The position numbers and the translations under genes were made by a program. The notes under the pieces are model-generated. The model saw only the letters and a program-made list of their open reading frames with translations. It was not told the DNA's origin and did no database searches. A DNA stretch of 37,254 nt from an uncultured Clostridia bacterium (GTDB lineage: Bacteria; Bacillota; Clostridia; Christensenellales; CAG-138): contig CAMPAN010000009.1 of assembly GCA_946631895.1 (NCBI GenBank), positions 1 to 37,254 of the forward strand, read 5' to 3'. Below are positions 12,878-27,505 of this stretch, in pieces. Within the stretch, counting starts at the first letter, position 1. Each line of letters opens with the position of its first letter.

Positions 12878-14098
12878 ATGGCAGAAGAAAAACGGTTTAC
12901 AAAAGCGACATGGCAGATCATGGAACAGCTTCTCGAGGTGGATAACCTCGACGACGCGCTCTCCGGCAGTCTGGAAATCATTGTCAACACGCTGAACAGC
13001 GAAGCCGGCGCGATCTGGCTTCTGGATCAGAAAACGGATCGGCTGACCCCGATGTTCCACATCGGACCGGCTGATATCTCCAACATCACGGTGGAAAACG
13101 GACTCGGCATCGAGGGCGTCGTCACCAAGACCGGCAAGTCCGTGATCGTGGAGGACGCGGCGAACGATTCGCGCTTCGAGGGCTCCGTGTTCGACGACAA
13201 CGGGCTTATTACCAAGACGATGATCTGCGTGCCGCTCAACAACCTGCACGACGTGATCGGCTGCGTGCAGATCGTCAACAAGAAGGACGGCAGTCTCTAC
13301 GACGCCGAGGAGCTGAAGCTGTGCGAGCGCATGGCGTCTCTCGCGGCGATCACGATCGACGAAAAGGGACTGATCGTCGACCTCGGTGAGAAAAAGGAGA
13401 TTCTTGCAACGCTCCGCAACGTCACAAAGGAGTTCCCCTCCGGCGACGGCGTGCTGCAGGTGCTGAAAGGAATCAACCTTGACGTCTACAAAAACGAATT
13501 TGTGGTCGTGCTCGGCGAGTCCGGCTGCGGAAAATCGACGATGATGAACATCGTCGGCGGCATGGACTTTCTGACCGACGGCGAGCTTACGGTCGAAGGC
13601 AGAGATTTCTCGCATCCCTCCGACGCCGAGCTCACGCAGTACCGCCGCGAATACATCGGCTTCATCTTCCAGTCCTATAACCTGATGCCGAATCTGACTG
13701 CGCTCGAGAACGTGCAGTTTATCGCGGAGCTTGTGAAAGAGCCCATGGACGCGGCGGACGCGATTGCAAAGGTCGGGTTAGCGGAGCGCGCAAACAACTA
13801 TCCCGGGCAGATGTCCGGCGGTCAGCAGCAGCGCGTGTCCATTGCGCGCGCGATCGTGAAAAAGCCGAAGCTGATCCTTGCCGACGAGCCGACGGCGGCG
13901 CTCGACTACACGACGAGCATTGAGGTCCTTTCGGTCGTCGAGGATATCGTACGCAAGCAGGGCGCGACGGTCATGATGGTCACGCACAACCCCGAGATCG
14001 CCAAGATGGCGGACCGCGTGGTCAAAGTGCGCAACGGAAAGATCGCAAGCATCAAAAAGAACCTGCACCCCGTCCACGCAGAAGAACTGGTTTGGTGA
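12878..14098 (+). CDS. ABC transporter ATPase with N-terminal GAF sensor domain
   Basis: A 406-aa fusion. Residues about 12-165 form a GAF domain (IMEQLLEVDNLDDALSGSLEIIVNTLNSEAGAIWLLD...GLGIEGVVTKTGKSVIVEDAANDSRF...VPLNNLHDVIGCVQIVNKKDG). Residues about 180-395 form an ABC ATPase of the MacB/LolD/FtsE class: Walker A GESGCGKST (213-221), Q-loop FIFQSYNLMP, signature MSGGQQQR (about 312), Walker B LILADEPTAALD and H-loop VTHN (about 370). All catalytic motifs are intact. It should drive the two FtsX-type permeases encoded directly downstream (6-nt gap). The GAF domain suggests that ATPase activity responds to a small ligand or redox cue, which is unusual for this class. The ATG is preceded by AAAGGAG. 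Confidence 0.92.
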   Translation: MAEEKRFTKATWQIMEQLLEVDNLDDALSGSLEIIVNTLNSEAGAIWLLDQKTDRLTPMFHIGPADISNITVENGLGIEGVVTKTGKSVIVEDAANDSRFEGSVFDDNGLITKTMICVPLNNLHDVIGCVQIVNKKDGSLYDAEELKLCERMASLAAITIDEKGLIVDLGEKKEILATLRNVTKEFPSGDGVLQVLKGINLDVYKNEFVVVLGESGCGKSTMMNIVGGMDFLTDGELTVEGRDFSHPSDAELTQYRREYIGFIFQSYNLMPNLTALENVQFIAELVKEPMDAADAIAKVGLAERANNYPGQMSGGQQQRVSIARAIVKKPKLILADEPTAALDYTTSIEVLSVVEDIVRKQGATVMMVTHNPEIAKMADRVVKVRNGKIASIKKNLHPVHAEELVW

Positions 14099-14104
14099 TT
14101 TGTC

Positions 14105-16759
14105 TTGAAGAAAACACAGCTGAAAGACGCATTACGCAACATATGGAAACAAAAGGTTTCCTTTCTGTCGATCATCGTGATCGCGCTTCTGGGCGTGACC
14201 GCCTTTTTGGGCATCGGATATTCGGCGTCGGCATTGCGGAAAAACGCATCGGCGGCGTACAACCGGCAGAACTATCGTGATATCGAGGTCATTTCCACGC
14301 GTCTTCTGACGGCGGAGGACCTCGACTGCATCCGCGCGCTTGACGGCGTGAAGGACGTCGAACCGGTCTGGCAGACCGCCGCGAACGCCTATATCGGCAG
14401 CGAAAAGCAGGTCATCAACATCATCACCGCGACGGAGCGGATCAATCTTGTATCGACGATCGAGGGGCGCATGCCCAAGGATGCTTCCGAGTGCGCGATC
14501 GAGCAAACCGTCGCCGAGGAAGCCGGATGGAAGATCGGCGACGAGATCGAATGGGCGGAAATGACCGATGTCACGGGGCAGTTCTTCCTCGGCGGGGATC
14601 CGTTCACGATCGTCGGCATCGTCGCGCATCCCGATCACGCAAGCAAAACCGTGCCGGAGACGCCGTATATGATCGTCAGCGCGGATCGGTTCGATCGGGA
14701 GGCGATGGAGAACTGCTGCATGAAGGCGGAGATCGTCATTGAGAAAGCAGCGGACGTCAACCGGTTTTCCGAGGAGTACGACGGGACCGTCGCGGCGGTT
14801 ATGCAAAAGGTCGAGCAGATCTCCGGGGAACGGATCGCGATCCGGGACGCGCAGATCAAAGAGCAGGCGCTTGCGCTGATCGAACAGGCGGAAACGACGC
14901 TTTCGGACAATAGAGAGCAGCTGACAACGGGAACCCAGACAAAGGACACCCTGCTCGGCATCATCGTGCAGGCGGAGCAGATCGTGGGCGGCATAGACGG
15001 GATGGACACCTCAATCGATTCTCTGCGGGAACTGAGACAGAAGATCGAAGAGAAGAGCTCCGATTTGGACGACACCGAAGCGATGCTTGCGCAGACGGAA
15101 ACGATGCTTCGGGAACAGCGCGATCAGCTGGACAACATGGAACCCGGCTACTGGTTCATCTTCGACGGACACGGCAGCGCGAGCTTTGTGCAGCTGATCA
15201 TCGGCAGCGGGAACCTCAAGAGCCTGGAAATGACCTTTTCGCTGCTGTTCGTGCTGGTCGGCGCGCTCGTGATCTATGCCACGATCAGCAAGATGATCGA
15301 CGAGCAGCGCACGCTGGTCGGAACGACCAAGGCGCTCGGCTTCTTCAACCGGGAGATCTTTGCAAAATACCTGCTGTTCGGTCTGTCCGCAACGGTGCTC
15401 GGCACCCTGCTCGGCATCCTGCTTGCGCGGTTTGTCTTTGAACCGTTCATTCTGAAAGGGTACGGCGCGTACTACACCTATGATACGACGGAACCGACGG
15501 TGACGGTCGGACCGACGCTGATCGTGCTGCTTGCGGGGATCGTCCTCGCCGTCGGCGCGATCACGCTTGCCTGCTACCGGCTGATCCGCACCCCTGCGAT
15601 CCGGCTGATGCAGCAGGCGGTCCCCAAGGGCAAAAAGACGAGCGCAAAAGGCGGAAAGCGGCTGTTGTCGCTGTATTCGCGACTGATCCTACTGAATATG
15701 CGCACCGACCTCAAACGCGTGATCGTGACGATCGTCAGCGCGGCGGGCTGCTGCGCGCTGATCGTGATCGGCTTTACGCTGAAGGCAGCGGTAAACGGCG
15801 CGGTCAAAAACCAGTATTCTTCCGTCGTGCATTACGACGCGAAGGTGCAGTATGAATACGGCGAGGAGATCGAAGCGGAGCTCATAAGATCCGGCGCGGA
15901 ATGCGTACCGCTGTACGACGTCTACATCACCTATCGGATCACGGACAATCAGGTGGGCGAACTGCTGTGCGGCGATATCGAAGCCATCGAATCCATGTAC
16001 CGTTTGAACGATTGGAAAACCGGAAGTCCGATTAAACCGACCGACGAGGGCATTCTGATCCAGCGGCGTCTGGCGGAGATCGAAGGTCTCGGCATCGGCA
16101 GCGAATTCCTGATCACCGTAGGCGGCGTGAAAACGGCGAAGGTCCGTGTGGCGGGCATCTTCGAAAACTACATCGGCCGCTCCATGGTGATGAGCACCGG
16201 GTATTACGCGTCGCTGTTCGGCGCGGCGCCCACACCCAATTCCTACCTGATCCGCCTGAACGACGCGGACGAGGAGGCGCTGCATACGCGACTCAAAGCG
16301 ATTTCGGGCTTTACCAAATACACGCCGGCGTCGGCGGACCGGGCAATGTTCGATTCCGCGACCTCGGTCGTCAACAGCATCGTCGTGCTGTTCATCGTCC
16401 TGGCGGCGATCATGGCAGGCGTGGTGCTGACAAATCTCATGAATATCTACATCATGCAGAAGAAGCGCGAGCTCGTCGTCATGCGCATCAACGGCTTCAC
16501 GGTCAGGGAGGTCATCGGCTACTGTACGCGTGAAACGATCCTGACGACGATTGCGGGCATCGTGCTGGGCATTGCGCTCGGCTCCGGGATCGCCTATCGG
16601 ATCGTGCGTTCGATGGAACAGGCGTTTATCCGGTTCGACCGCGGCGTCAGCCCGCTCGCATGGCTGTACGGCGCGCTGATCACGGTGCTGTTCACGGTCA
16701 TCATCAATGCGATCGTTCTTCGGAAGGTGAAGCATCTGAAGCTGACGGACGCTGTATAA
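14105..16759 (+). CDS. FtsX-type ABC permease with coiled-coil stalk (first of two)
   Basis: An 884-aa FtsX/MacB-superfamily permease. Helix 1 is at about 18-38, followed by an extracytoplasmic region (40-370) whose last part (about 252-342) is predicted coiled coil. Helices 2-4 lie between about 376 and 495 (MTFSLLFVLVGALVIYATISKMI; FAKYLLFGLSATVLGTLLGIL; LIVLLAGIVLAVGAITLACY). A second half has a helix at about 540-560, a second extracytoplasmic domain, and three C-terminal helices. The sequence around helices 2-3, IDEQRTLVGTTKALGFFNREIFAKY, is the FtsX cytoplasmic loop that contacts the ATPase. It starts with TTG at 14105, weakly supported by GGTGA, 6 nt after the ATPase stop. It is paralogous to the next gene. 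Confidence 0.9.
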   Translation: MKKTQLKDALRNIWKQKVSFLSIIVIALLGVTAFLGIGYSASALRKNASAAYNRQNYRDIEVISTRLLTAEDLDCIRALDGVKDVEPVWQTAANAYIGSEKQVINIITATERINLVSTIEGRMPKDASECAIEQTVAEEAGWKIGDEIEWAEMTDVTGQFFLGGDPFTIVGIVAHPDHASKTVPETPYMIVSADRFDREAMENCCMKAEIVIEKAADVNRFSEEYDGTVAAVMQKVEQISGERIAIRDAQIKEQALALIEQAETTLSDNREQLTTGTQTKDTLLGIIVQAEQIVGGIDGMDTSIDSLRELRQKIEEKSSDLDDTEAMLAQTETMLREQRDQLDNMEPGYWFIFDGHGSASFVQLIIGSGNLKSLEMTFSLLFVLVGALVIYATISKMIDEQRTLVGTTKALGFFNREIFAKYLLFGLSATVLGTLLGILLARFVFEPFILKGYGAYYTYDTTEPTVTVGPTLIVLLAGIVLAVGAITLACYRLIRTPAIRLMQQAVPKGKKTSAKGGKRLLSLYSRLILLNMRTDLKRVIVTIVSAAGCCALIVIGFTLKAAVNGAVKNQYSSVVHYDAKVQYEYGEEIEAELIRSGAECVPLYDVYITYRITDNQVGELLCGDIEAIESMYRLNDWKTGSPIKPTDEGILIQRRLAEIEGLGIGSEFLITVGGVKTAKVRVAGIFENYIGRSMVMSTGYYASLFGAAPTPNSYLIRLNDADEEALHTRLKAISGFTKYTPASADRAMFDSATSVVNSIVVLFIVLAAIMAGVVLTNLMNIYIMQKKRELVVMRINGFTVREVIGYCTRETILTTIAGIVLGIALGSGIAYRIVRSMEQAFIRFDRGVSPLAWLYGALITVLFTVIINAIVLRKVKHLKLTDAV

Positions 16760-16792
16760 CTCAAAGGAACGGCGTTCGCGGAGGGAAAGCAT

Positions 16793-19700
16793 TTGAAGCG
16801 AACACAGATTAAAGACGCATTGCGGAACATCCGAAAACTGCAGATCTCGTTCTGGTCGATCGTCGTGATCGCCGCGCTCGGCGTGACGATCTTTCTCGGC
16901 GTCGACTATGCCGCGGCCGCGCTCCGAAAAAACGCAACCGCCTATTATCGGGATACAGGCTTCCGCGACGTCGAGATCGTTTCCACCATGCTGCTTTCCG
17001 CAGAGGATATGGACGTTATCAAAAACACGGAGGGCGTGACGGACGTTGAGGGCGTCTATATGACCGCCGCCAAGGCGGTGTCAAACGACACCCGCATGGA
17101 CGCGTATGTGATCTCCGTGACGGAGCGGATCAACATCCCGTCCGTATACGAGGGACGTCTGCCGGAAAACGTCGGCGAATGCGCCGTTGAGCGGCGGCTG
17201 ATGGATCAGATGGGATGGAAGGTCGGCGATACGATCGCGGTCACGAGCGCTGACGGCAAGACGCCGCAGTATCTCAAAGCCGATTCGTTCGTTATCTGCA
17301 GCGCGATCCTGCATCCGGACCATGCCTGCAACAGCATCACGGAAACGCTTTACATCGTCGTGACGCCCGAGGCGTTCGATGCGGAAGCGCTGAACGGCTG
17401 TTTTATGAAGGCAGAGATCATGGCGGACCGTCCGATCGACATCAACCGTTACGGCGCCGAATACCGGACGGCGGCGGCTGCAGTGCGCGAACGGATGGAA
17501 ACGACCGCCGAAACGCGCACGCCGCTTCGCGAGGCGTCGGTAAAGGAGCAGATCGACGAGAACCGACAGAAACTGGACGACGCCGAAGCGGAGCTTGAGA
17601 ACGGACGCGCGGAACTCGACGACGGCTGGAACCGGCTTGCGGAGGGCGAACGGGACTACGAGGAAGGCAAACAGAAGCTCGAGGACGGACGGAAGCAGCT
17701 GGACGATACCAAGGAACAGCTTGCGGAAGCCGAGCAGAAACTGAAGGACGGACGCGCGGAGCTGGATGCCGCAAAGGCGGAGCTCGAAGCAGGCAAGGCG
17801 CAGCTTGATGATGCGGAAAAGAAGCTCAATTCGGCAAAGCGGAAGCTCGTTTCCGGCTGGGACACGATCGAAGACGCCAAGACGCAGATCCGAAACAAGC
17901 TGCATGCCGGGCTTGATAACATCATCAGCGAGGATTCCTCCCAATGGATCCACTGGGCAGCGCCGATGAAGGCGAACCCGAACAGCTCGAAGGTTTCCGC
18001 GAGCGACTTCCGGATCACGGAAAGCTATACGATCAATCTCGGCGCGTCGCTGTCCGATAAGATCAATCAGCTCATGAGCACGGTGCAGATCCCGGATCGC
18101 GTGCTACGGATCGCGTTCGAAAAACTCGGAGGCGAGGGCGAATACGATCCCGATACTGCGCGCAATCTTCTTGCCTCCCGTCTTGCATCGCTTGCGGGCG
18201 GGTATCAGTCGCAGTACGACGCGCTCGCCGACGGATGCACCAAATGGGACAAGGGGCACAAGACCTATCTTTCGGGACTTTGGCAGTATCGCGAAGGTCT
18301 TGCAAAGTACGAAGAAGCGCTCAAGCTGTATCAGGATGGCGAAGCGCACTACGCCGAGGGGCTTGCACAGTATGAGGACGGTCTTTCGCAGTACAACGAC
18401 GGAGAAACGCAATATGCGCAGGGATTGATCGATCTTGAAAACGGCCGCAGGGCGCTTGACGACGCCCGCGCAAAGCTTGAGGATGCCGAACGGCAATACG
18501 CGGACGGACTCAAACAGTACAACGAAGGCAGGGAAGCGCTCCAAACGGCGCAGAAGCGCATTGAAGCGCTCGGTCCGTGCAAGTGGATCGTGACCGACGG
18601 TTTCGGAAACGTCGGCTTTGTGCAGCTCGGGACCGCTGCAAATAATCTGAAGAGCATGGAGATGACCTTTGCGCTCCTGTTCGTTCTGGTCGGCGCGCTC
18701 GTCATCTACGCAACCGTCAGCAAGATGGTCGACGAACAGCGCAGACAGATCGGGACGACAAAAGCGCTCGGCTTTTTCAACCGTGAGATCTTCGCAAAAT
18801 ACCTGTTGTTCGGGATCTCGGCGACACTGCTCGGATGCGTGATCGGTCTGCTGATCGCGCGATTCGGGATCCAGGGCTTTATCACGAACGGCTATAATCT
18901 TTATTTTGATTACAATCTTAAGAAGCCTGCAATGGTTGCGCTTCCGACGGTGATCGTGTTTTTGGCGGGTATCCTTTTGGCGTTCTTCTCCATTTGGTTT
19001 GCATGCGCGAAGCTGCTACGCACACCGGCGATCAGGCTGATGCAGCAGGCGGTTCCGAAGGGCAGGAACAAGGCGGCGTCCGGCAAAAAATCCGCGTTGT
19101 CGCTCTATTCGCGTCTGATCCTTTTGAATATCCGGACGGATTTCCGCCGCGTGCTCGTCACGGTCGTGAGCGTCGCGGGCTGCTGCGCGCTGGTCGTCAT
19201 CGGCATTACGATCCGAAACGCGGTCAGCAATTCGCTGGAGCTGCAGCTCAACAAGATCATCCGTTACGACGGCATGGTGTCGCTTGATCCCGAAACGAAC
19301 GCCGATGCGCCGGACGCCGTCGCGCGGATCCTCAAGGATGCGGGCGCAAAGGGCTGTCCCGTTCTCAAAAAGAACGTCACCGTGCACATCACGGATCTCG
19401 ACATGCTGGAGCTGTACGTCGGAGATCCTGCGGAGGTCGGCGAAATGAACCTGCTTGCCGACGCCAAAACCGACGAGCCGATCCCGCCGACCGATGAAGG
19501 CATTCTGGTCTCGAGACGGTTTTCCGAGAACTATCACATCAAGGTCGGCGATCCGGTTGAGATCTCTCTGAACGGCACGGAGACGGTGCAAACAACCGTC
19601 GCAGGCATCTTCAACACTTATATCGGCAGAGAGACGTATATGAGCGACAACTGCTTCCGGAATCTGTTCGGACGCGATCCGGAAACGAACGCGTTCCTCG

Positions 19701-20209
19701 TCCGCCTTGACGGCACAGAGCTCGATCCTTTGCTTGAAAAGCTCGGTACGGTCGAGGGGTATGAGAGCTACGAACGCTCCGATTCCTTCAAACCGCTGTT
19801 TGAAACGGCAACCGGCGTCATGAACATGGTCGTGTTGCTGTTTATCTTCATGGCGGCGGTCATGGCGGGCGTCGTGCTGATGAACCTCACCAATATCTAT
19901 ATCATGCAGAAACTGCCGGAGCTGACGATCATGCGCATCAACGGCTTTACGGTCCGGGAGACCGTTGGCTACGTTCTGCGTGAAACGGTCGTCACGACCG
20001 CAGCGGGCATTCTGCTCGGCATCGGGCTCGGCACGGGCATCGGCTACAAGATCGTATGTTCGCTGGAACAGAGCTTCGTACAGTTCGATCGCCGTCCGTC
20101 GATCGTCGCATGGATCGTCGGTGCATTGATGACGATCGTATTCACGGTCATCGTCAACGCGATCGCGCTGAAGAAGGTCCGAACGCTGAAGCTGACGGAC
20201 GCCGCATGA
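16793..20209 (+). CDS. FtsX-type ABC permease with long heptad-repeat stalk (second of two)
   Basis: An 1138-aa paralogue of the preceding permease, with the same plan: helix 1 at about 18-38, FtsX loop VDEQRRQIGTTKALGFFNREIFAKY at about 645, and C-terminal FtsX helices. It is longer because the extracytoplasmic part carries two long coiled-coil segments. The first (about 249-372) is built of LxxGRxxLDDA-type heptads. The second (about 481-593) is built of YxxG heptads (EEALKLYQDGEAHYAEGLAQYEDG). A globular insert of about 110 residues lies between them. The two arms could form an antiparallel hairpin stalk reaching into the cell wall. The start is TTG at 16793 behind GGAGGG with a good spacer. 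The two permeases probably form a heterodimer driven by the GAF-ABC ATPase. Confidence 0.9.
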   Translation: MKRTQIKDALRNIRKLQISFWSIVVIAALGVTIFLGVDYAAAALRKNATAYYRDTGFRDVEIVSTMLLSAEDMDVIKNTEGVTDVEGVYMTAAKAVSNDTRMDAYVISVTERINIPSVYEGRLPENVGECAVERRLMDQMGWKVGDTIAVTSADGKTPQYLKADSFVICSAILHPDHACNSITETLYIVVTPEAFDAEALNGCFMKAEIMADRPIDINRYGAEYRTAAAAVRERMETTAETRTPLREASVKEQIDENRQKLDDAEAELENGRAELDDGWNRLAEGERDYEEGKQKLEDGRKQLDDTKEQLAEAEQKLKDGRAELDAAKAELEAGKAQLDDAEKKLNSAKRKLVSGWDTIEDAKTQIRNKLHAGLDNIISEDSSQWIHWAAPMKANPNSSKVSASDFRITESYTINLGASLSDKINQLMSTVQIPDRVLRIAFEKLGGEGEYDPDTARNLLASRLASLAGGYQSQYDALADGCTKWDKGHKTYLSGLWQYREGLAKYEEALKLYQDGEAHYAEGLAQYEDGLSQYNDGETQYAQGLIDLENGRRALDDARAKLEDAERQYADGLKQYNEGREALQTAQKRIEALGPCKWIVTDGFGNVGFVQLGTAANNLKSMEMTFALLFVLVGALVIYATVSKMVDEQRRQIGTTKALGFFNREIFAKYLLFGISATLLGCVIGLLIARFGIQGFITNGYNLYFDYNLKKPAMVALPTVIVFLAGILLAFFSIWFACAKLLRTPAIRLMQQAVPKGRNKAASGKKSALSLYSRLILLNIRTDFRRVLVTVVSVAGCCALVVIGITIRNAVSNSLELQLNKIIRYDGMVSLDPETNADAPDAVARILKDAGAKGCPVLKKNVTVHITDLDMLELYVGDPAEVGEMNLLADAKTDEPIPPTDEGILVSRRFSENYHIKVGDPVEISLNGTETVQTTVAGIFNTYIGRETYMSDNCFRNLFGRDPETNAFLVRLDGTELDPLLEKLGTVEGYESYERSDSFKPLFETATGVMNMVVLLFIFMAAVMAGVVLMNLTNIYIMQKLPELTIMRINGFTVRETVGYVLRETVVTTAAGILLGIGLGTGIGYKIVCSLEQSFVQFDRRPSIVAWIVGALMTIVFTVIVNAIALKKVRTLKLTDAA

Positions 20210-20245: not shown

Positions 20246-20274
20246 TTGACACAAAAACCAGGATTGCTTATTAT
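20246..20274 (+). promoter_or_regulatory. Near-consensus promoter of the giant secreted protein gene
   Basis: TTGACA (20246-20251), a 17-bp spacer, then TATTAT (20269-20274). The ORF track's start at 20246 is the TTG of this -35 box. The promoter shows that the 2340-aa protein can be transcribed independently of the permease operon. Confidence 0.8.
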
Positions 20275-20323
20275 CGACACAGATAAACATGCGGTTCGGA
20301 TCCCAGACTCAGGAGGAACGGAA

Positions 20324-23300
20324 ATGAAACGAAAACTGACGGCATGGCTGCTTATTATGTGCATGGCGATCGGACTGCTGCCGGTTACGGCGACGGCGGA
20401 TTCCGACGCATATATCGGCAAGGTTTCGGTGCTCAACGGGGGCACCAAGTATTATACGTCCGTCTCCGAGCTTGCAAATTATGTGAAGGAGCTTTCCGAC
20501 CGTTCCTTCACCGTCGACATGCTTGCGGACTGGGACAACGCGCGGCTGTGCATCCCGAGCAAGGCGTGGGCGACGCTGAACATGCACGGGCATCTTTACA
20601 ACCGCGGATTGACGGAAGCCGAAAGCGACGGCGAGGTCATCTGGGTCGGGTCCGACGCAAAGCTGACGATCAACGGCTACAGCACGAGCGACGAGCGAAA
20701 CGTCGAGCATGCGGTCGGCGTGTATCACGACTGGAGACACGAAGGCAAAGCAGACGTTCAAAAAACCTTCCGGGGCGGCGTGATCGCGGGCGGATACAGC
20801 ACCAACGGAGGCGGCGGGATCGACGTGAAAAGCAACTGCGAGCTGACGCTGAACGACGTCACGATCGCGGGCTGCCGGTCCGAGCAGAGCGGAGGCACCG
20901 ACGGCTACGGCGGCGGTATCTGGGTGCACGGCGGTATCAACGAAGCGGGCACGGTGATCATGAACCGTTCGACGATCACCGGCTGTTACGCATACAATTC
21001 CGGCGGCGGTCTGTATCAATCCAACCACAATAAATTCTATATGGAGATGAATCAGTCGCACATCGAGAGCAATTACTGCTACAGCAACGGCGGCGGCGTC
21101 TACCTGGGCGGCGCGACCATCACGCTGAAGGGCGACAGGGGCTCCTACATTTCGTACAACCGTACGGGCGGCGGCAAGAATCAGGACGGCGGCGGGGTTT
21201 ACGTCAACAACGACGAAGTGACCGTGAGCGGGTTGATCATCGCAGACAATCTCGCGTACAACGGCGGCGGCGTCTTCTGCGACGATAAAAAGATCACGCT
21301 TTCGGACTGCGACATCCGGGATAACTATGCGTTCCATTGCGGCGGGGGCGTCTATATCTGCAACAACAGCGACGCGATCAACAGCTGCAGCATCGGCGGC
21401 AACGAGTCCCGGAACGAAGGCGGCGGCGTTTACGTGGAATCCGACGTCGAAAAGGGCTTTGCGGTGACCGGCAGCACGCAGATCGCGGGGAACCGATCCG
21501 GCAATCTGTATCTGGAGAACGGCGCGCGCGCAAATTTCGTGCTGACCAAGGGCGCTTACGTCTGCCTGCAATACCGGGATATGCCGAGCTCCTATCAGAT
21601 GGTCACGGAGGGCGAGGCCGGCGATACGGTCAAGACGACGGACTGCATCCGCTTCCTTGAAAGCGACGTAAGCGGGTATCACTTTACATTCAATTCAGCG
21701 CCGGACCAGCGCAAGATCTATCTTGTGAAGGACGGGTATTCCGACGGTACGGTCGGCACGTCCTATACGCCGCTGACGCCGATCCGGATCAGCGCGGAGG
21801 AAGCGACCGCCGCGGCAAAGACGCCGGTTCCGGACTATACGGTCGAAGGCGAATCCGGCAGGTCGTACGATCTCTATCGCGGATACTACCGGTATCAGTC
21901 CATCGAAGATCCGACCGCGAACAATACCGCCGTGTTTTATTATTCCGACGGGTATTTCGACGCGTCGCCGGCGAAATACAACGCGCATCTTGCCACGATG
22001 TCGACGGCGATGGCGCAGGCAGGCATGTATCTGCAGAACATGGACTATCCGTACAAGCACGCTGCGATCCGTCAGCTCATGACGGACATCGGCGTACCGG
22101 AGGAGAACGTATACGTCAACGCATACAATCTTCAGAAGCCCGGCACGGACACGATCGGCGTTGCGATCGGATCCAAGAAGCTGAAAGACCGAAACGGCAA
22201 TGAAACCGGCTATATTCTGATTCCGGTCGTCGTTCGCGGCGGCGGGTACGAAGCCGAATGGGCAAGCAATATGACGCTCGGCTCCGGCGCGGAGCGCGAC
22301 GGCGAGGCGCAGGGCTTTTCCGAAGCCGCCGATCAGGCGAAGCAGGAGATCGAAACCTATCTTGACCGGTACGACCTGCGCGGCGCGCTGAACGAGGGCA
22401 GGATCAAATTCTGGGTCATGGGCTTTTCCCGTGCGGGCGCGACCGCGAACATCACGTCGAAGCGGCTTGTGGAGGAATACTGCTGCGGAGGGTATCAGGA
22501 CCTTTATAACAATCAGGTCTTTGCATACTGCATCGAAGCGCCGCAGGGCGGCACGGACAAGGCGGAGGCGCTTTCAAACCCCCGCGATTATTACTGCATC
22601 CATAACGTCATCAACTACGCGGATATCGTTCCGCTGGTGGGACCGACCGAGATGGGCTTCAAACGCTACGGCGTGGATCACTATGTTCCGGGCACGGCGA
22701 CAGGCGAAGTGTATAAGATCACCGGATCGGCTACCCGCGCCGGGAGCTTCAGCGGGATCACGACCGTGACAAGGCGAGAGGACAACGATCCGATCGAGAC
22801 CAAGACGAGCGCTTACGAAGCCCTGCGCGAACAGATGCTCCCGCAGCTCAGGTCGATGGATTCCGATATCGTGTTCGACGATTATTTCCATCTGACGGAG
22901 ATGAACTTTATCTCGGATCCGATGTTCGAGGAGGCGGGCTCTTACGAACCGAACGAGGAATGGTTCATCCGTTCCTTCCTGTCGGTTTTCCAGAGCGCAA
23001 GCCTTACGTCCAGAGACTTGTGGGCGGTTGAAAAAGTCCAGATCAACGGTGTAACCTACAACACCATGCAGCAGGCGCTCCGCGAGACCTGTGCTCTCGT
23101 TTTCGGCATGGACGAATCGCGCATGCAGCAGTTCATCAACAAAGCGTCGCGGATGGCGAGCACGATCTCGTATGTTCCGTTGAAATCGTATGAATACGGC
23201 ATGATCGAGATCTGGGACGACGTGATCGGCGATTGGCATACGCTGTCCGGCGCAACAAAACAGTCCTATATCAACTTCATCTGGGATCGATTGAAAGCGA

Positions 23301-26300
23301 CCGGGGCATTCCAATATCTCGACGAGGACGACGTCCGCAAGCTGCGCAATAACTTCCCGACGCTACTGGAACGGATTCTGAACTATACGGACTGGGATTA
23401 TGCGCATACGCACGTTTCCTGCTCGGATTATTCCAACATGATCTGGACCGGCACGTTTGCGGCGAATGCAGGAAAGATTATCTCAAACCACTATCCGGAG
23501 GTGGATATCGCATGGCAGCGCGCCGCGGACAGCTTCTATAACGGCGAGGTGTTCGACGAGCGCAACAGGGAATACAAGATCTCGCTGCCCGATCATATCG
23601 ACGTTCCTGGCGCATACTATACGGTTACCGACGGGGAGGGCACGCATCGGGAGCGGATCAACACCTCCGCCGTCGTGGATCTTGAGGGCGAGCAGCGCCT
23701 GATCCTCGACGTGCCGGAGCTTGACGGCGAAGCGATCTATTATTCCCTGAACGGCGGCGACTGGGAGCTCTTCCGCGGTTGGATCGATCTTCCGCTCAAC
23801 GAAGGCGAAGCGTTCACAAGCTACTATATCCGCACCTATGCAAGATGGTATGACCGCAACAGCCAGACGACCGTGTATCAGGTCAAGCTGCTGAGCGGAA
23901 AACAGCCGGTCATGGTGATCACGCAGATCGACGGGGAATCGGGCGTCGAGGAAAAGATCGAGACCGCGCAGTATGCAAGCGGCGAGACCGTTGCGCTGCA
24001 TGCCGACGTTCCGTCCGGAACGTTCTTCCTGAAGTGGAATATTCAGACCCAGTCGGGCAGATACGTCACCAACAAGCTGATCCCGGATCCCGAACAGCAA
24101 AAGCAGACGGACGTCACGTTTGTAATGCCGGAGGCGGGAAAGGGCGATTTCCCGATGGACTACGAGCTCACCTGTACGGCAAGCTACGGCGAAAGGATCG
24201 GGGAGATCGATATCCGCCTGAAGGACAAGGACGGATATGCGGAGGACAATCCGACGGCGGGCGAACCGCTTCCGTATTGGTTCAACGCGGTCTGGAACGG
24301 AACCGGTCATCTGTATGCGGGAGAGTGGTATCTCCATACGGAGGACGGCTCGAAGATCCTTTGGGACAGAGATATTCCCGCATGTAACCACACGGTCTAT
24401 TCCGCAGTCATCACCATTCCGGAGGAACGGGCGATGCTGTTCGAGGATGATCTGGCCGTGACGTACAGTTATACGTCCGGCGTCACGTATACGTATTCGC
24501 TGGATCCGACGACGCGCGATGTGACCGTCGAACTCACCTTCCCGGAAACGGATTATGAGAGCGAAGAATTTGAGCCGGATCTCAGCAGCGTGTTCACGCT
24601 CACGATCGAGCAATGGAACAAGAACCGCACGGAACCGACCAAAGCGGCGGAGGACAGAGTCGTTCGCCTGCTGAAGGGACATTCCATCACGATCTATCCG
24701 TCTTCGATCGACAACATGGCGTTTGACGGATGGGATTCCTGGGTCGAAGCATTCGACGGAAAAGATATCGAAGTGCAGAGCCCGGGCGACGGAACGGGGC
24801 GGATCATCCTGCACGTCGGAACGAACGCGCCGGATACAGCGTCGCTCACCTGCCGGTATGTGCCGCTTATCTCGCGCGTCGAGATCACGGTCGGGCCGCA
24901 GAACGGAGCCGACGACTGGACGCCGACCGCTGCGGAACGCACGGATTGTGCGATCAAACAGGTGATGGTCACCTGCGGCAAGACATACGAGGTGTGTCCG
25001 GTTTATGACGGAGTTTCGTTCTTCCGCCTGATCATGTCGCCGAGCGGGACCAGGATCCGCGATGAGAACGGAAACAACATTTTGGTATACAACTACAATA
25101 CCGTGTATACGGCGAAGGTCGATTTTCTCGTGCGCTCCGAACCGATGCGCGTATTGAGATACGATCTGTATGAGCCGGAGGATTTCTTTGTGAACGGAAA
25201 TTACCAGCTCACGGAGGATGCGGTGGTCCTGATCAACGGACGCAGCGCGGATATCGTCAACGACGCGGGAACCACGGCGACGCTGGCATTCCCGAAAACG
25301 GAATCCGGGCCGGTAAAGCTGATCGATTACGAGAGGCCGTCGGGTATGTATGAGGCTCCGCACGGATCGAGCCGCGATGTCGTAAAGTACGAGTATTTAC
25401 CGCAAGTGCTTCCGATCACGGTCGATGACGGGAGCTTCACTGAAGCATCCGTTATATGGAACAGCATCGAGCCGGATCCGGATCCGTACCCCGCAACGCT
25501 GGACGAGATCGTCTGCACGGCGGAGGGGCATCTGAGCCTGCCGTTCGGCGTCGACAGCAACGGGATCGATACGACGTTCTCCGTGCAGATCATTGTGAAG
25601 GAAGCGGATCACTGCGCGGCGCCGGTCGCTTCCGTGCCGTCCGGCACATACCCGGCGGCGATCGACGTCATCCTTTCCACTGAAACGGAAGGCGGCGCCA
25701 TCTGGTATACGACGAACGGATTGACTCCGGGTCTGACGGAGACGCATGAGTATGAAGAACCCATCCATATTACGCCGGACATGGTCAACGAACAGGGTGA
25801 ATTCGTCATTCGCGCATATGCGTGGAAAAACAAACTGAACGACAGTCCGGAATCGGTCTTTGTCTACAAATTCACGGACAGGATCGTGCCGCCGGAGGGC
25901 GATACGCTGACCTATCGCGGCGAACCGCAGATCGGCGTGGGGGCAAGCCCGTTCTACACCCTGATCGCGCCGGACGGCAGCGGAGTTGAGATCGACGGCG
26001 AAGGCAATGCAACTGCGACGAACGCCGGCGTCTATACGGTCACGGCGCATATCGCGGACGGCTACGTCTGGAAGATCGGCGAAACGGAACCGCAGGCGGT
26101 GCCGGGCGAACCGGACGAAAACGGCACGGTTCCGGTCGAGTGGATCACAGAGGATATTACAACGGACGAGGACCGGACGATCACCTTCACGATCGGGAAA
26201 GCGTCGCTCGAAGGCGCGATCGTCACCGCGGAGGATATGGTTTACACGGGCGAACCGCTGACGCCCCAAGTCACGGTCAGCCTCGGCGACGCGCCGATTC

Positions 26301-27346
26301 CGGCCGCCGAGTATTCGGTGACGTTCGAGAACAACACCGAGATCGGTACGGCAACGATCATCGTCACGGGCAACGAAATCAACTACACCGGTACGGCGAC
26401 CGGCACGTTTGAAATCCTCGGCGCGCCTGAACCGAAGTTTGCCACGCACAGTCTCGTCCTGTCCGGGCAGATCGGCGTGAACTTCTATATGGAGCTTCCT
26501 GCGATCGACGGCGTGGACTGGTCGGCAAGCTACATGACGTTCGAGATCCCGCACGGAACGGTCACCGCGCGCGACGATTACGATCCGACCGCGATGAACA
26601 GAAAAGCGACGTATTACTGCTTCACCGCGTATGTCAATTCGGTCCAGATGGCGGAGCCGATCACGGCGACGTTCCACTATTTTGTGAACGACGAAGAAAA
26701 AACGATCAAGGATACTTACGCGATCCGCGACTACTTCACAGGGTTCGACGACGCGCTTGCAGAGGATCCGAACGCCTATGACGAACAGACGATCGACCTC
26801 GTTCACGCGCTTGCGGATTACGGTCACTATATGCAGATCTTCCTGTCGGCAGCACGGAACTGGACGATCGGCGAGGATTACGCGGAGATGGATCTGTCCT
26901 ATACGGGCAGCTATGACATCGGTGCGATCAAGACAGCATTGACCGGCTATGCGATCGAACCGACCGCAGACGGTGCGGACGTCACCGGATTCTCATTTGC
27001 CGCGGTATTCGATTCCGCAACGGCAATCCGCATGCAGTTCAGGGTGCCGAAAGGATATTCCGGCGCATTCACGGCGGAGACGTCGGACGGCACGCCGGTC
27101 GTTGCGGCAAAGTCCGGCAGCCGGTATACGGTTGAGATCAAAGACATTGCCGCGCATCAACTGAGTAAGGTGTTCGAGCTCGTGATCACAACGGACAGCG
27201 GCACAATGACGGTGAAGATTTCCGCGCTGTCCTATGTGAAGACCATACTTGACGCCTGCGCGGATGACGCTTCGCAGAACGCGATGGCGGCGATCTATGC
27301 CTATTCCGAGGCAGCGCGGGCCTATAAAACGGTACATCCGAACTGA
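20324..27346 (+). CDS. 2340-aa secreted multidomain protein with beta-helix and hydrolase-like domain
   Basis: The start is ATG 20324 behind AGGAGG. A signal peptide (MKRKLTAWLLIMCMAIGLLPVTATA) is cleaved after about residue 25. Residues about 150-390 form a parallel beta-helix with eight GGG[ILV] turns (GGGIDV, GGGIWV, GGGLYQ, GGGVYL and so on). Residues about 540-800 look like a serine hydrolase: nucleophile elbow GFSRAG (Ser702), NYADIVPLV (candidate Asp767) and YGVDHYVPG (candidate His786), similar to lipase-like domains. A helical region and bacterial-repeat/InlB-like modules follow (about 1190-1600). After these come a chitobiase-C-like module (about 1764-1820, GGAIWYTTNGLTPG), Ig/MBG-like modules (about 1860-2036) and a C-terminal domain (about 2040-2340, SLVLSGQIGVNFYMELP). 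There is no LPXTG or SLH anchor. It is probably released or held by its own modules. Substrate unknown. Confidence 0.9.
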   Translation: MKRKLTAWLLIMCMAIGLLPVTATADSDAYIGKVSVLNGGTKYYTSVSELANYVKELSDRSFTVDMLADWDNARLCIPSKAWATLNMHGHLYNRGLTEAESDGEVIWVGSDAKLTINGYSTSDERNVEHAVGVYHDWRHEGKADVQKTFRGGVIAGGYSTNGGGGIDVKSNCELTLNDVTIAGCRSEQSGGTDGYGGGIWVHGGINEAGTVIMNRSTITGCYAYNSGGGLYQSNHNKFYMEMNQSHIESNYCYSNGGGVYLGGATITLKGDRGSYISYNRTGGGKNQDGGGVYVNNDEVTVSGLIIADNLAYNGGGVFCDDKKITLSDCDIRDNYAFHCGGGVYICNNSDAINSCSIGGNESRNEGGGVYVESDVEKGFAVTGSTQIAGNRSGNLYLENGARANFVLTKGAYVCLQYRDMPSSYQMVTEGEAGDTVKTTDCIRFLESDVSGYHFTFNSAPDQRKIYLVKDGYSDGTVGTSYTPLTPIRISAEEATAAAKTPVPDYTVEGESGRSYDLYRGYYRYQSIEDPTANNTAVFYYSDGYFDASPAKYNAHLATMSTAMAQAGMYLQNMDYPYKHAAIRQLMTDIGVPEENVYVNAYNLQKPGTDTIGVAIGSKKLKDRNGNETGYILIPVVVRGGGYEAEWASNMTLGSGAERDGEAQGFSEAADQAKQEIETYLDRYDLRGALNEGRIKFWVMGFSRAGATANITSKRLVEEYCCGGYQDLYNNQVFAYCIEAPQGGTDKAEALSNPRDYYCIHNVINYADIVPLVGPTEMGFKRYGVDHYVPGTATGEVYKITGSATRAGSFSGITTVTRREDNDPIETKTSAYEALREQMLPQLRSMDSDIVFDDYFHLTEMNFISDPMFEEAGSYEPNEEWFIRSFLSVFQSASLTSRDLWAVEKVQINGVTYNTMQQALRETCALVFGMDESRMQQFINKASRMASTISYVPLKSYEYGMIEIWDDVIGDWHTLSGATKQSYINFIWDRLKATGAFQYLDEDDVRKLRNNFPTLLERILNYTDWDYAHTHVSCSDYSNMIWTGTFAANAGKIISNHYPEVDIAWQRAADSFYNGEVFDERNREYKISLPDHIDVPGAYYTVTDGEGTHRERINTSAVVDLEGEQRLILDVPELDGEAIYYSLNGGDWELFRGWIDLPLNEGEAFTSYYIRTYARWYDRNSQTTVYQVKLLSGKQPVMVITQIDGESGVEEKIETAQYASGETVALHADVPSGTFFLKWNIQTQSGRYVTNKLIPDPEQQKQTDVTFVMPEAGKGDFPMDYELTCTASYGERIGEIDIRLKDKDGYAEDNPTAGEPLPYWFNAVWNGTGHLYAGEWYLHTEDGSKILWDRDIPACNHTVYSAVITIPEERAMLFEDDLAVTYSYTSGVTYTYSLDPTTRDVTVELTFPETDYESEEFEPDLSSVFTLTIEQWNKNRTEPTKAAEDRVVRLLKGHSITIYPSSIDNMAFDGWDSWVEAFDGKDIEVQSPGDGTGRIILHVGTNAPDTASLTCRYVPLISRVEITVGPQNGADDWTPTAAERTDCAIKQVMVTCGKTYEVCPVYDGVSFFRLIMSPSGTRIRDENGNNILVYNYNTVYTAKVDFLVRSEPMRVLRYDLYEPEDFFVNGNYQLTEDAVVLINGRSADIVNDAGTTATLAFPKTESGPVKLIDYERPSGMYEAPHGSSRDVVKYEYLPQVLPITVDDGSFTEASVIWNSIEPDPDPYPATLDEIVCTAEGHLSLPFGVDSNGIDTTFSVQIIVKEADHCAAPVASVPSGTYPAAIDVILSTETEGGAIWYTTNGLTPGLTETHEYEEPIHITPDMVNEQGEFVIRAYAWKNKLNDSPESVFVYKFTDRIVPPEGDTLTYRGEPQIGVGASPFYTLIAPDGSGVEIDGEGNATATNAGVYTVTAHIADGYVWKIGETEPQAVPGEPDENGTVPVEWITEDITTDEDRTITFTIGKASLEGAIVTAEDMVYTGEPLTPQVTVSLGDAPIPAAEYSVTFENNTEIGTATIIVTGNEINYTGTATGTFEILGAPEPKFATHSLVLSGQIGVNFYMELPAIDGVDWSASYMTFEIPHGTVTARDDYDPTAMNRKATYYCFTAYVNSVQMAEPITATFHYFVNDEEKTIKDTYAIRDYFTGFDDALAEDPNAYDEQTIDLVHALADYGHYMQIFLSAARNWTIGEDYAEMDLSYTGSYDIGAIKTALTGYAIEPTADGADVTGFSFAAVFDSATAIRMQFRVPKGYSGAFTAETSDGTPVVAAKSGSRYTVEIKDIAAHQLSKVFELVITTDSGTMTVKISALSYVKTILDACADDASQNAMAAIYAYSEAARAYKTVHPN

Positions 27347-27469
27347 GAGGCGGAACGGTACGAACACACGGGAACGGAGACCTTCGTTTTTGAAAACGCC
27401 GATGCGATAACAGGCATCTGCGGCATCGGAACGCCGGATAGCCGCAAACCGGATGCGATATAAACAAGT

Positions 27470-27505
27470 AAGCCCGAAGCGTGTGCGCTTCGGGCTTTGC
27501 TGTTT
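27470..27505 (+). terminator. Strong terminator after the giant protein gene
   Basis: AAGCCCGAAGCG (27470-27481), loop TGTG, then CGCTTCGGGCTT (27486-27497) and TGCTGTTTC. The 12-bp stem is perfect. It lies between convergent genes (the giant protein and the minus-strand fchA) and may serve both strands. The core is nearly identical to the terminator at 344-379. Confidence 0.85.

Follow-up and report, generated by a model that had tools for sequence, protein, structure and literature searches.

A giant secreted protein with a predicted beta-helix, a class-3-lipase-type hydrolase domain and a shared C-terminal domain in an uncultured Clostridia bacterium

The 37,254-nucleotide stretch of DNA analysed here (the window) encodes a protein of 2340 residues, probably a class-3-lipase-type serine ester hydrolase that is secreted and stays at the cell surface, with a shared C-terminal domain (CTD) as its retention or sorting module. 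This reading draws on sequence comparison and structure models. A signal peptide would send the protein out of the cell, where an N-terminal beta-helix, conserved along with the enzyme, would form an elongated binding or spacer part. Its partner, the alpha/beta hydrolase (Ser702, Asp767 and His1056, with the oxyanion loop around Arg638-Gly639), would then cleave an ester; the probable substrates are acyl lipids or esterified polymers from plants in the herbivore gut. A stalk with a chitobiase-like module would extend the enzyme, and the final 300 residues, the CTD, would keep the protein on or near the cell surface non-covalently, or sort it.

A class-3 lipase branch of this type is relevant where plant galactolipids and esterified fibre have to be broken down, as in the ruminant gut. 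The tail may matter more than the enzyme: it is a non-Pfam domain that marks the secreted enzymes of this lineage, with a conserved small peptide gene behind it. This pair would make it directly testable how uncultured gut Clostridia hold or export digestive enzymes.

The gene and its expression signals

The following features define the gene.
20324..27346, + strand: giant secreted protein, 2340 residues, complete open reading frame
20246..20274, + strand: sigma-70-like promoter, TTGACA-17-TATTAT (11 of 12 consensus matches)
20311..20316, + strand: Shine-Dalgarno sequence AGGAGG, just 5' of the ATG at 20324
20324..20398, + strand: signal peptide, residues 1-25 (MKRKLTAWLLIMCMAIGLLPVTATA), read from the sequence; relatives show the same pattern
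27470..27497, + strand: terminator-like hairpin, 12-bp stem and, after it, a weak run of T

The gene runs from the ATG at 20324 to the stop codon at 27344-27346, exactly the coordinates and length given in an earlier reading of this DNA (the sequence-only reading). The mechanically called open reading frame begins upstream, at a TTG at 20246; judged from the sequence, the ATG is the sensible start, and we prefer it because the Shine-Dalgarno site precedes it. The near-consensus promoter that had been proposed for this gene is indeed present. In the closest relative, L032, the –35 hexamer and the spacing are the same and the –10 hexamer differs. Rfam and tRNA searches of the window returned nothing.

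The source organism is probably a gut bacterium from a ruminant. Its genome is an incomplete draft (1.73 Mb in 158 contigs, 63% complete) in which absences mean little, and near relatives of up to 97% completeness were used instead.

Domain architecture

The mature protein is divided as follows.
20399..21763, + strand: right-handed beta-helix with GGG[IVF] turns, residues 26-480 (AlphaFold2 strands; Foldseek matches to tailspikes and Rhombotarget; kept in 21 relatives)
21824..23578, + strand: class-3-lipase-like alpha/beta hydrolase, residues 501-1085 (profile, alignment, AlphaFold2, Foldseek)
23651..25633, + strand: middle region, residues 1110-1770, with no Pfam family above threshold
25637..25846, + strand: chitobiase-like CHB_HEX_C_1 module, residues 1772-1841 (Pfam PF13290, E 4e-11)
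26240..26419, + strand: weak MBG_3-like module, residues 1973-2032 (Pfam, below cut-off)
26444..27343, + strand: shared CTD, residues 2041-2340, two repeats of a beta-sandwich plus helical hairpin

AlphaFold2 modelled residues 26-1115 with a mean pLDDT of 83. The N-terminal part of this model consists of repeated short strands that form a solenoid, which both AlphaFold2 and Foldseek place with right-handed beta-helices. Pfam, AlphaFold2 and Foldseek thus bear out the order of beta-helix, hydrolase, chitobiase-like module and C-terminal domain that the sequence-only reading had proposed, and the signal peptide agrees with its suggestion that the protein is secreted. Two of its module assignments did not survive. 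Bacterial-repeat modules find no Pfam match in the giant protein (in relative L035, the corresponding position does give one), and the sole hint of Ig-like tail modules is the sub-threshold MBG_3 match, the CTD being a separate kind of domain. NCBIfam matches on the giant protein were all sub-threshold and were dismissed as spurious, a PHROGs search gave nothing, and a sequence search of solved structures with the giant protein and the CTD profile found no match.

A class-3-lipase-type hydrolase with conserved putative catalytic residues

An alignment of 39 hydrolase domains contains Ser, Asp and His in the order typical of class-3 lipases.
22427..22429, + strand: putative nucleophile Ser702 (GFSRAG), in 39 of 39 relatives
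22622..22624, + strand: putative catalytic Asp767 (NYADIVP), in 39 of 39 relatives
23489..23491, + strand: putative catalytic His1056 (NHYPE), in 34 of 36 relatives
22235..22240, + strand: Arg638-Gly639 of VRGGGYE, at the RG position of the class-3-lipase oxyanion hole (R in 36, G in 37 of 39)

E645, W646, N649, W697, G700 and R703 are invariant as well. By analogy to known class-3 lipases, Arg638-Gly639 would serve in the oxyanion hole. The Pfam family Lipase_3 (PF01764) scores 18.7 bits on the giant protein, below the curated cut-off of 22; it reaches 40.8 bits in relative L041, covering profile positions 2-136 of 140, and also passes the cut-off in L056, L055, L035 and L045. A Foldseek search with the model of residues 26-1115 returned feruloyl esterase A and the Gibberella and Rhizomucor lipases first (prob 1.00, target TM 0.45-0.52), with phage tailspike beta-helices ranking below them. 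The earlier suggestion of a hydrolase-like part therefore passed its fold test, these top matches being class-3 lipases and the fold an alpha/beta hydrolase of the fungal lipase type. Together, alignment and model show a predicted class-3-lipase-type fold with conserved putative triad positions.

Asp767 and His1056 are separated by 289 residues, compared with about 54 in the Rhizomucor lipase. The intervening stretch is predicted to be mostly helical and may act as a cap.

Relatives of the giant protein

A scan of GTDB contigs yielded 33 loci with relatives. These are labelled mostly as ruminant or herbivore gut metagenome-assembled genomes (MAGs) of Clostridia, Lachnospiraceae, Ruminococcus, Eubacterium and Coriobacteriaceae, plus one of Methanomethylophilaceae. 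Many of the relatives are themselves giant (1,200-4,500 residues). Beta-helix and hydrolase, the N-terminal ~1,050 residues, align in 21 of them, throughout or to the contig end; these come from ruminant-type gut Clostridia, Lachnospiraceae, Ruminococcus and Coriobacteriaceae, and their tails vary. Other loci (L056-L064) carry the hydrolase without the beta-helix, and Chlam_PMP Pfam matches are present in relatives. Apparently, the beta-helix/hydrolase proteins form a large, uncharacterised class-3-lipase branch spread through ruminant-gut bacteria.

The Methanomethylophilaceae-labelled contig encodes a stand-alone member of the hydrolase family that is 40% identical (L056:1887-3533), which points either to acquisition of the gene by an archaeon or to misbinning.

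The same relatives bear on whether the hydrolase-like part might be a non-catalytic or weakly catalytic scaffold in a protein that is mainly an adhesin for host or plant material. Beta-helix, chitobiase-like and Ig-like modules are frequent in adhesins, relatives exceed 4,000 residues, and in L055 more than a dozen BspA-type leucine-rich repeat (LRR) stretches surround the enzyme. Against this, all members from several bacterial families and the archaeal-labelled MAG have the Ser and the Asp, nearly all have the His, and the RG loop is kept too. We favour catalysis because this conservation of triad and RG loop is hard to explain otherwise, and consider an adhesin built on an inactive scaffold unlikely.

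The shared C-terminal domain

The CTD occurs in 24 of 103 genomes of the family, with 1-14 matches per genome. Of 292 genomes sampled throughout the class, 13 contain it, among them that of the window. It ends 0-13 residues short of the stop codon in 55 of the 56 genes. Its carriers in the window's genome and in G077 and G074 include endonuclease I, alpha-amylase, subtilase, TSP3-lipase/Lipase_3, cleaved-adhesin and LRR proteins; those with intact starts have signal-peptide-like N-termini. A Pfam scan of 38 CTD members gave scattered weak matches only, with no family and no known sorting or anchor domain. Foldseek matches were to generic Ig/FnIII folds only (query TM ≤ 0.22), none of them a convincing solved counterpart, and an Ig-like identity was rejected in favour of a separate two-repeat domain.

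The giant protein lacks the sortase-type combination of an LPXTG-like motif, a hydrophobic segment and a basic tail and instead ends in the CTD (...AARAYKTVHPN), in agreement with the statement of the sequence-only reading that no covalent anchor is visible. Sortases do exist in the genus, so covalent anchoring occurs there. In relatives, the homologous enzyme terminates in ChW repeats (L041) or in a hydrophobic segment with a basic tail (L035, L042, L043, L045, L048). Because such elements replace the CTD at the same position, we read it, by analogy, as this lineage's general module for non-covalent retention.

The CTD could instead be a cap for stability or folding on a freely released exoenzyme. 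Its modelled fold of two beta-sandwich plus helical-hairpin repeats is compact and very confident (pLDDT 95, pTM 0.90), and several of its carriers are ordinary exoenzymes. A mere cap would sit less well with a domain that is strictly C-terminal on unrelated enzymes and whose place other lineages give to ChW repeats or a hydrophobic-basic tail, so that we regard this as a serious but rather improbable alternative to surface retention. Sorting by a type IX-like system was rejected: Omp85, a marker of the diderm outer-membrane machinery, was not found in 23 genomes of the genus, and control genomes were positive.

The window protein and its orthologue in L032 are ~92% identical up to residue 2040 and ~50% identical beyond. 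In the DNA, identity breaks off some 16 codons inside the CTD, just past the conserved SLVLSGQIGVNF stretch, and the two halves of the CTD can differ in their nearest relatives. Because of this identity break and the different affinities of the halves, these alignments show a CTD evidently exchanged between orthologues as a cassette. Set against the orthologue in G077, 92% identical, the swap falls at window positions 26440-26500, with the break in the highly conserved DNA that encodes SLVLSGQIGVNF.

A small peptide gene behind the CTD

A degenerate small gene follows the giant gene.
27347..27463, + strand: relic of a leader-like peptide gene of about 32 residues (YEHTGTETFVFENADAITGIC...), without a start codon, in frame after the stop and intact at the same place in L032

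Downstream of the giant gene, L032 contains two small open reading frames, the shorter being MEPYERAEMEIIILENVDVITGSCDAETPDIP. A scan of every locus for the motif located an open reading frame of the same type, ~32 residues long, directly behind CTD genes in several clostridial families (for example L032:15624-15935, L131:2393-2488, L133:2417-2515 and L144:2405-2503), with the pattern MKxYExxEIEIVxFxxEDVITxS and an acidic end. A Shine-Dalgarno-like motif is present at 13 of 13 of these reading frames, compared with 17% of random ATGs. In a profile search, 27 of the 52 better matches in CTD-bearing genomes have a CTD within 420 nt upstream of them on the same strand, where 0.03 would be expected; nine of the 27 are seeds of the profile, and 18 of 43 remain when seeds are excluded. 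About two thirds of the CTD genes counted have no companion peptide behind them. An NCBIfam search of the peptides gave nothing useful.

Within the same genus, peptides related to the companion occur as tandem copies next to a radical SAM/SPASM enzyme and an S24/S26-type peptidase, and the companion motif therefore resembles a RiPP leader. Loci of this type are L196:5911-8750 (contig 3 of the window's own genome), L204:6311-8532 and L199:6726-8227. Each encodes between one and three precursor-like peptides in tandem, L196 and L204 also include the peptidase, and the loci represent a probable RiPP cluster of the genus. All eight CTD-bearing genomes of the genus that were tested contain the radical SAM/SPASM enzyme. 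It was not found in the other CTD-bearing families tested, which speaks against a general, direct dependence of the companion peptide on it. A maturase gene lies beside the peptide copies at the radical SAM locus, and none was seen beside CTD-linked copies.

In related genera (L198:2447-6988, L207:6288-7640, L208:4504-5775), the same peptide type is found behind secreted proteins with a different shared tail (...YGAILYNSINGRLSNTASGTYVA), which suggests that another family of tails is accompanied by this peptide.

Searches of the open-access literature found no description, and CTD and peptide look undescribed in the libraries searched. We tentatively propose that monoderm gut Clostridia could have a surface-retention or sorting system, previously unnamed, in which the CTD is attached to unrelated secreted enzymes, passes between genes as a cassette and acts jointly with the ~32-residue RiPP-leader-like peptide whose gene lies right after many of the carrier genes.

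The neighbouring GAF-ABC/FtsX operon

12878..20209, + strand: GAF-ABC ATPase and two FtsX permeases (neighbours only)

This operon adjoins the giant gene in the window and in L032, and in L033 the ATPase and FtsX genes lie upstream of it, an arrangement that would fit a substrate/exporter pair in which the transporter exports the giant protein or acts on its products. The association suggested by the sequence-only reading did not hold in a neighbourhood survey. Of the 23 genomes of the genus, 16 contain the ATPase gene (6 of the 7 good ones) and only 3 the giant protein; in G076, G070 and G069, what comes after the operon is different sequence without the giant gene. Where flanks were available, the operon was not beside the gene in relatives outside the closest three species, and distant homologues lack it. 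The giant protein moreover has its own signal peptide and promoter, and to our knowledge MacB/FtsX-type transporters do not usually export proteins of this kind. Since co-occurrence fails in both directions, we rejected a functional link and consider an exporter role very improbable.

The first FtsX gene (window 14105-16759) is 89-97% identical in some genomes of the genus and only 44-46% identical in L150, L155, L158 and L161. The ATPase gene preceding it stays >90% identical across the same genomes; by these identities, the first FtsX gene is one that has been replaced within the operon.

Comparison with known systems

Right-handed beta-helix proteins such as phage tailspikes, Chlamydia PMP-type proteins with GGG[ILV] repeats and Rhombotarget A resemble the N-terminal part in predicted fold and in the GGG[IVF] turns. 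Here the helix is coupled to a hydrolase and lacks an autotransporter barrel, and it does not belong to an outer-membrane system because the genus lacks Omp85.

Like the CTDs of Bacteroidota type IX secretion, the CTD is a C-terminal domain common to unrelated secreted enzymes, including a cleaved-adhesin protein. It differs in its 300 residues and two repeats, in having no Pfam sorting-domain match and in occurring in a genus without Omp85, so that the likeness is one of working principle only. With the Gram-positive anchors (LPXTG, SLH, ChW, LysM) it shares the position at the protein end, but it has no sequence match to any Pfam family.

The companion peptide shares with precursors of radical-SAM/SPASM RiPPs a leader-like YxxPxxEIIxFxxEDVITxS, and at another place in the source genome tandem copies of this peptide type adjoin a radical SAM/SPASM enzyme. 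CTD-linked copies differ in being mostly free of cysteine and in lying apart from the radical SAM gene.

With class 3 lipases (PF01764; Rhizomucor miehei lipase, Aspergillus feruloyl esterase A), the hydrolase has in common the alpha/beta hydrolase core with its nucleophile elbow, the RG oxyanion loop and the Ser-Asp-His order. The elbow reads GHSLGG in those enzymes and G[FY]SR[AG][GA] in the family of the giant protein, which also has ~235 extra, mostly helical residues between Asp and His. The catalytic idea, a class-3 lipase fold, is thus ordinary, whereas the architecture, with its N-terminal beta-helix fusion, long stalk and giant size, is unusual.
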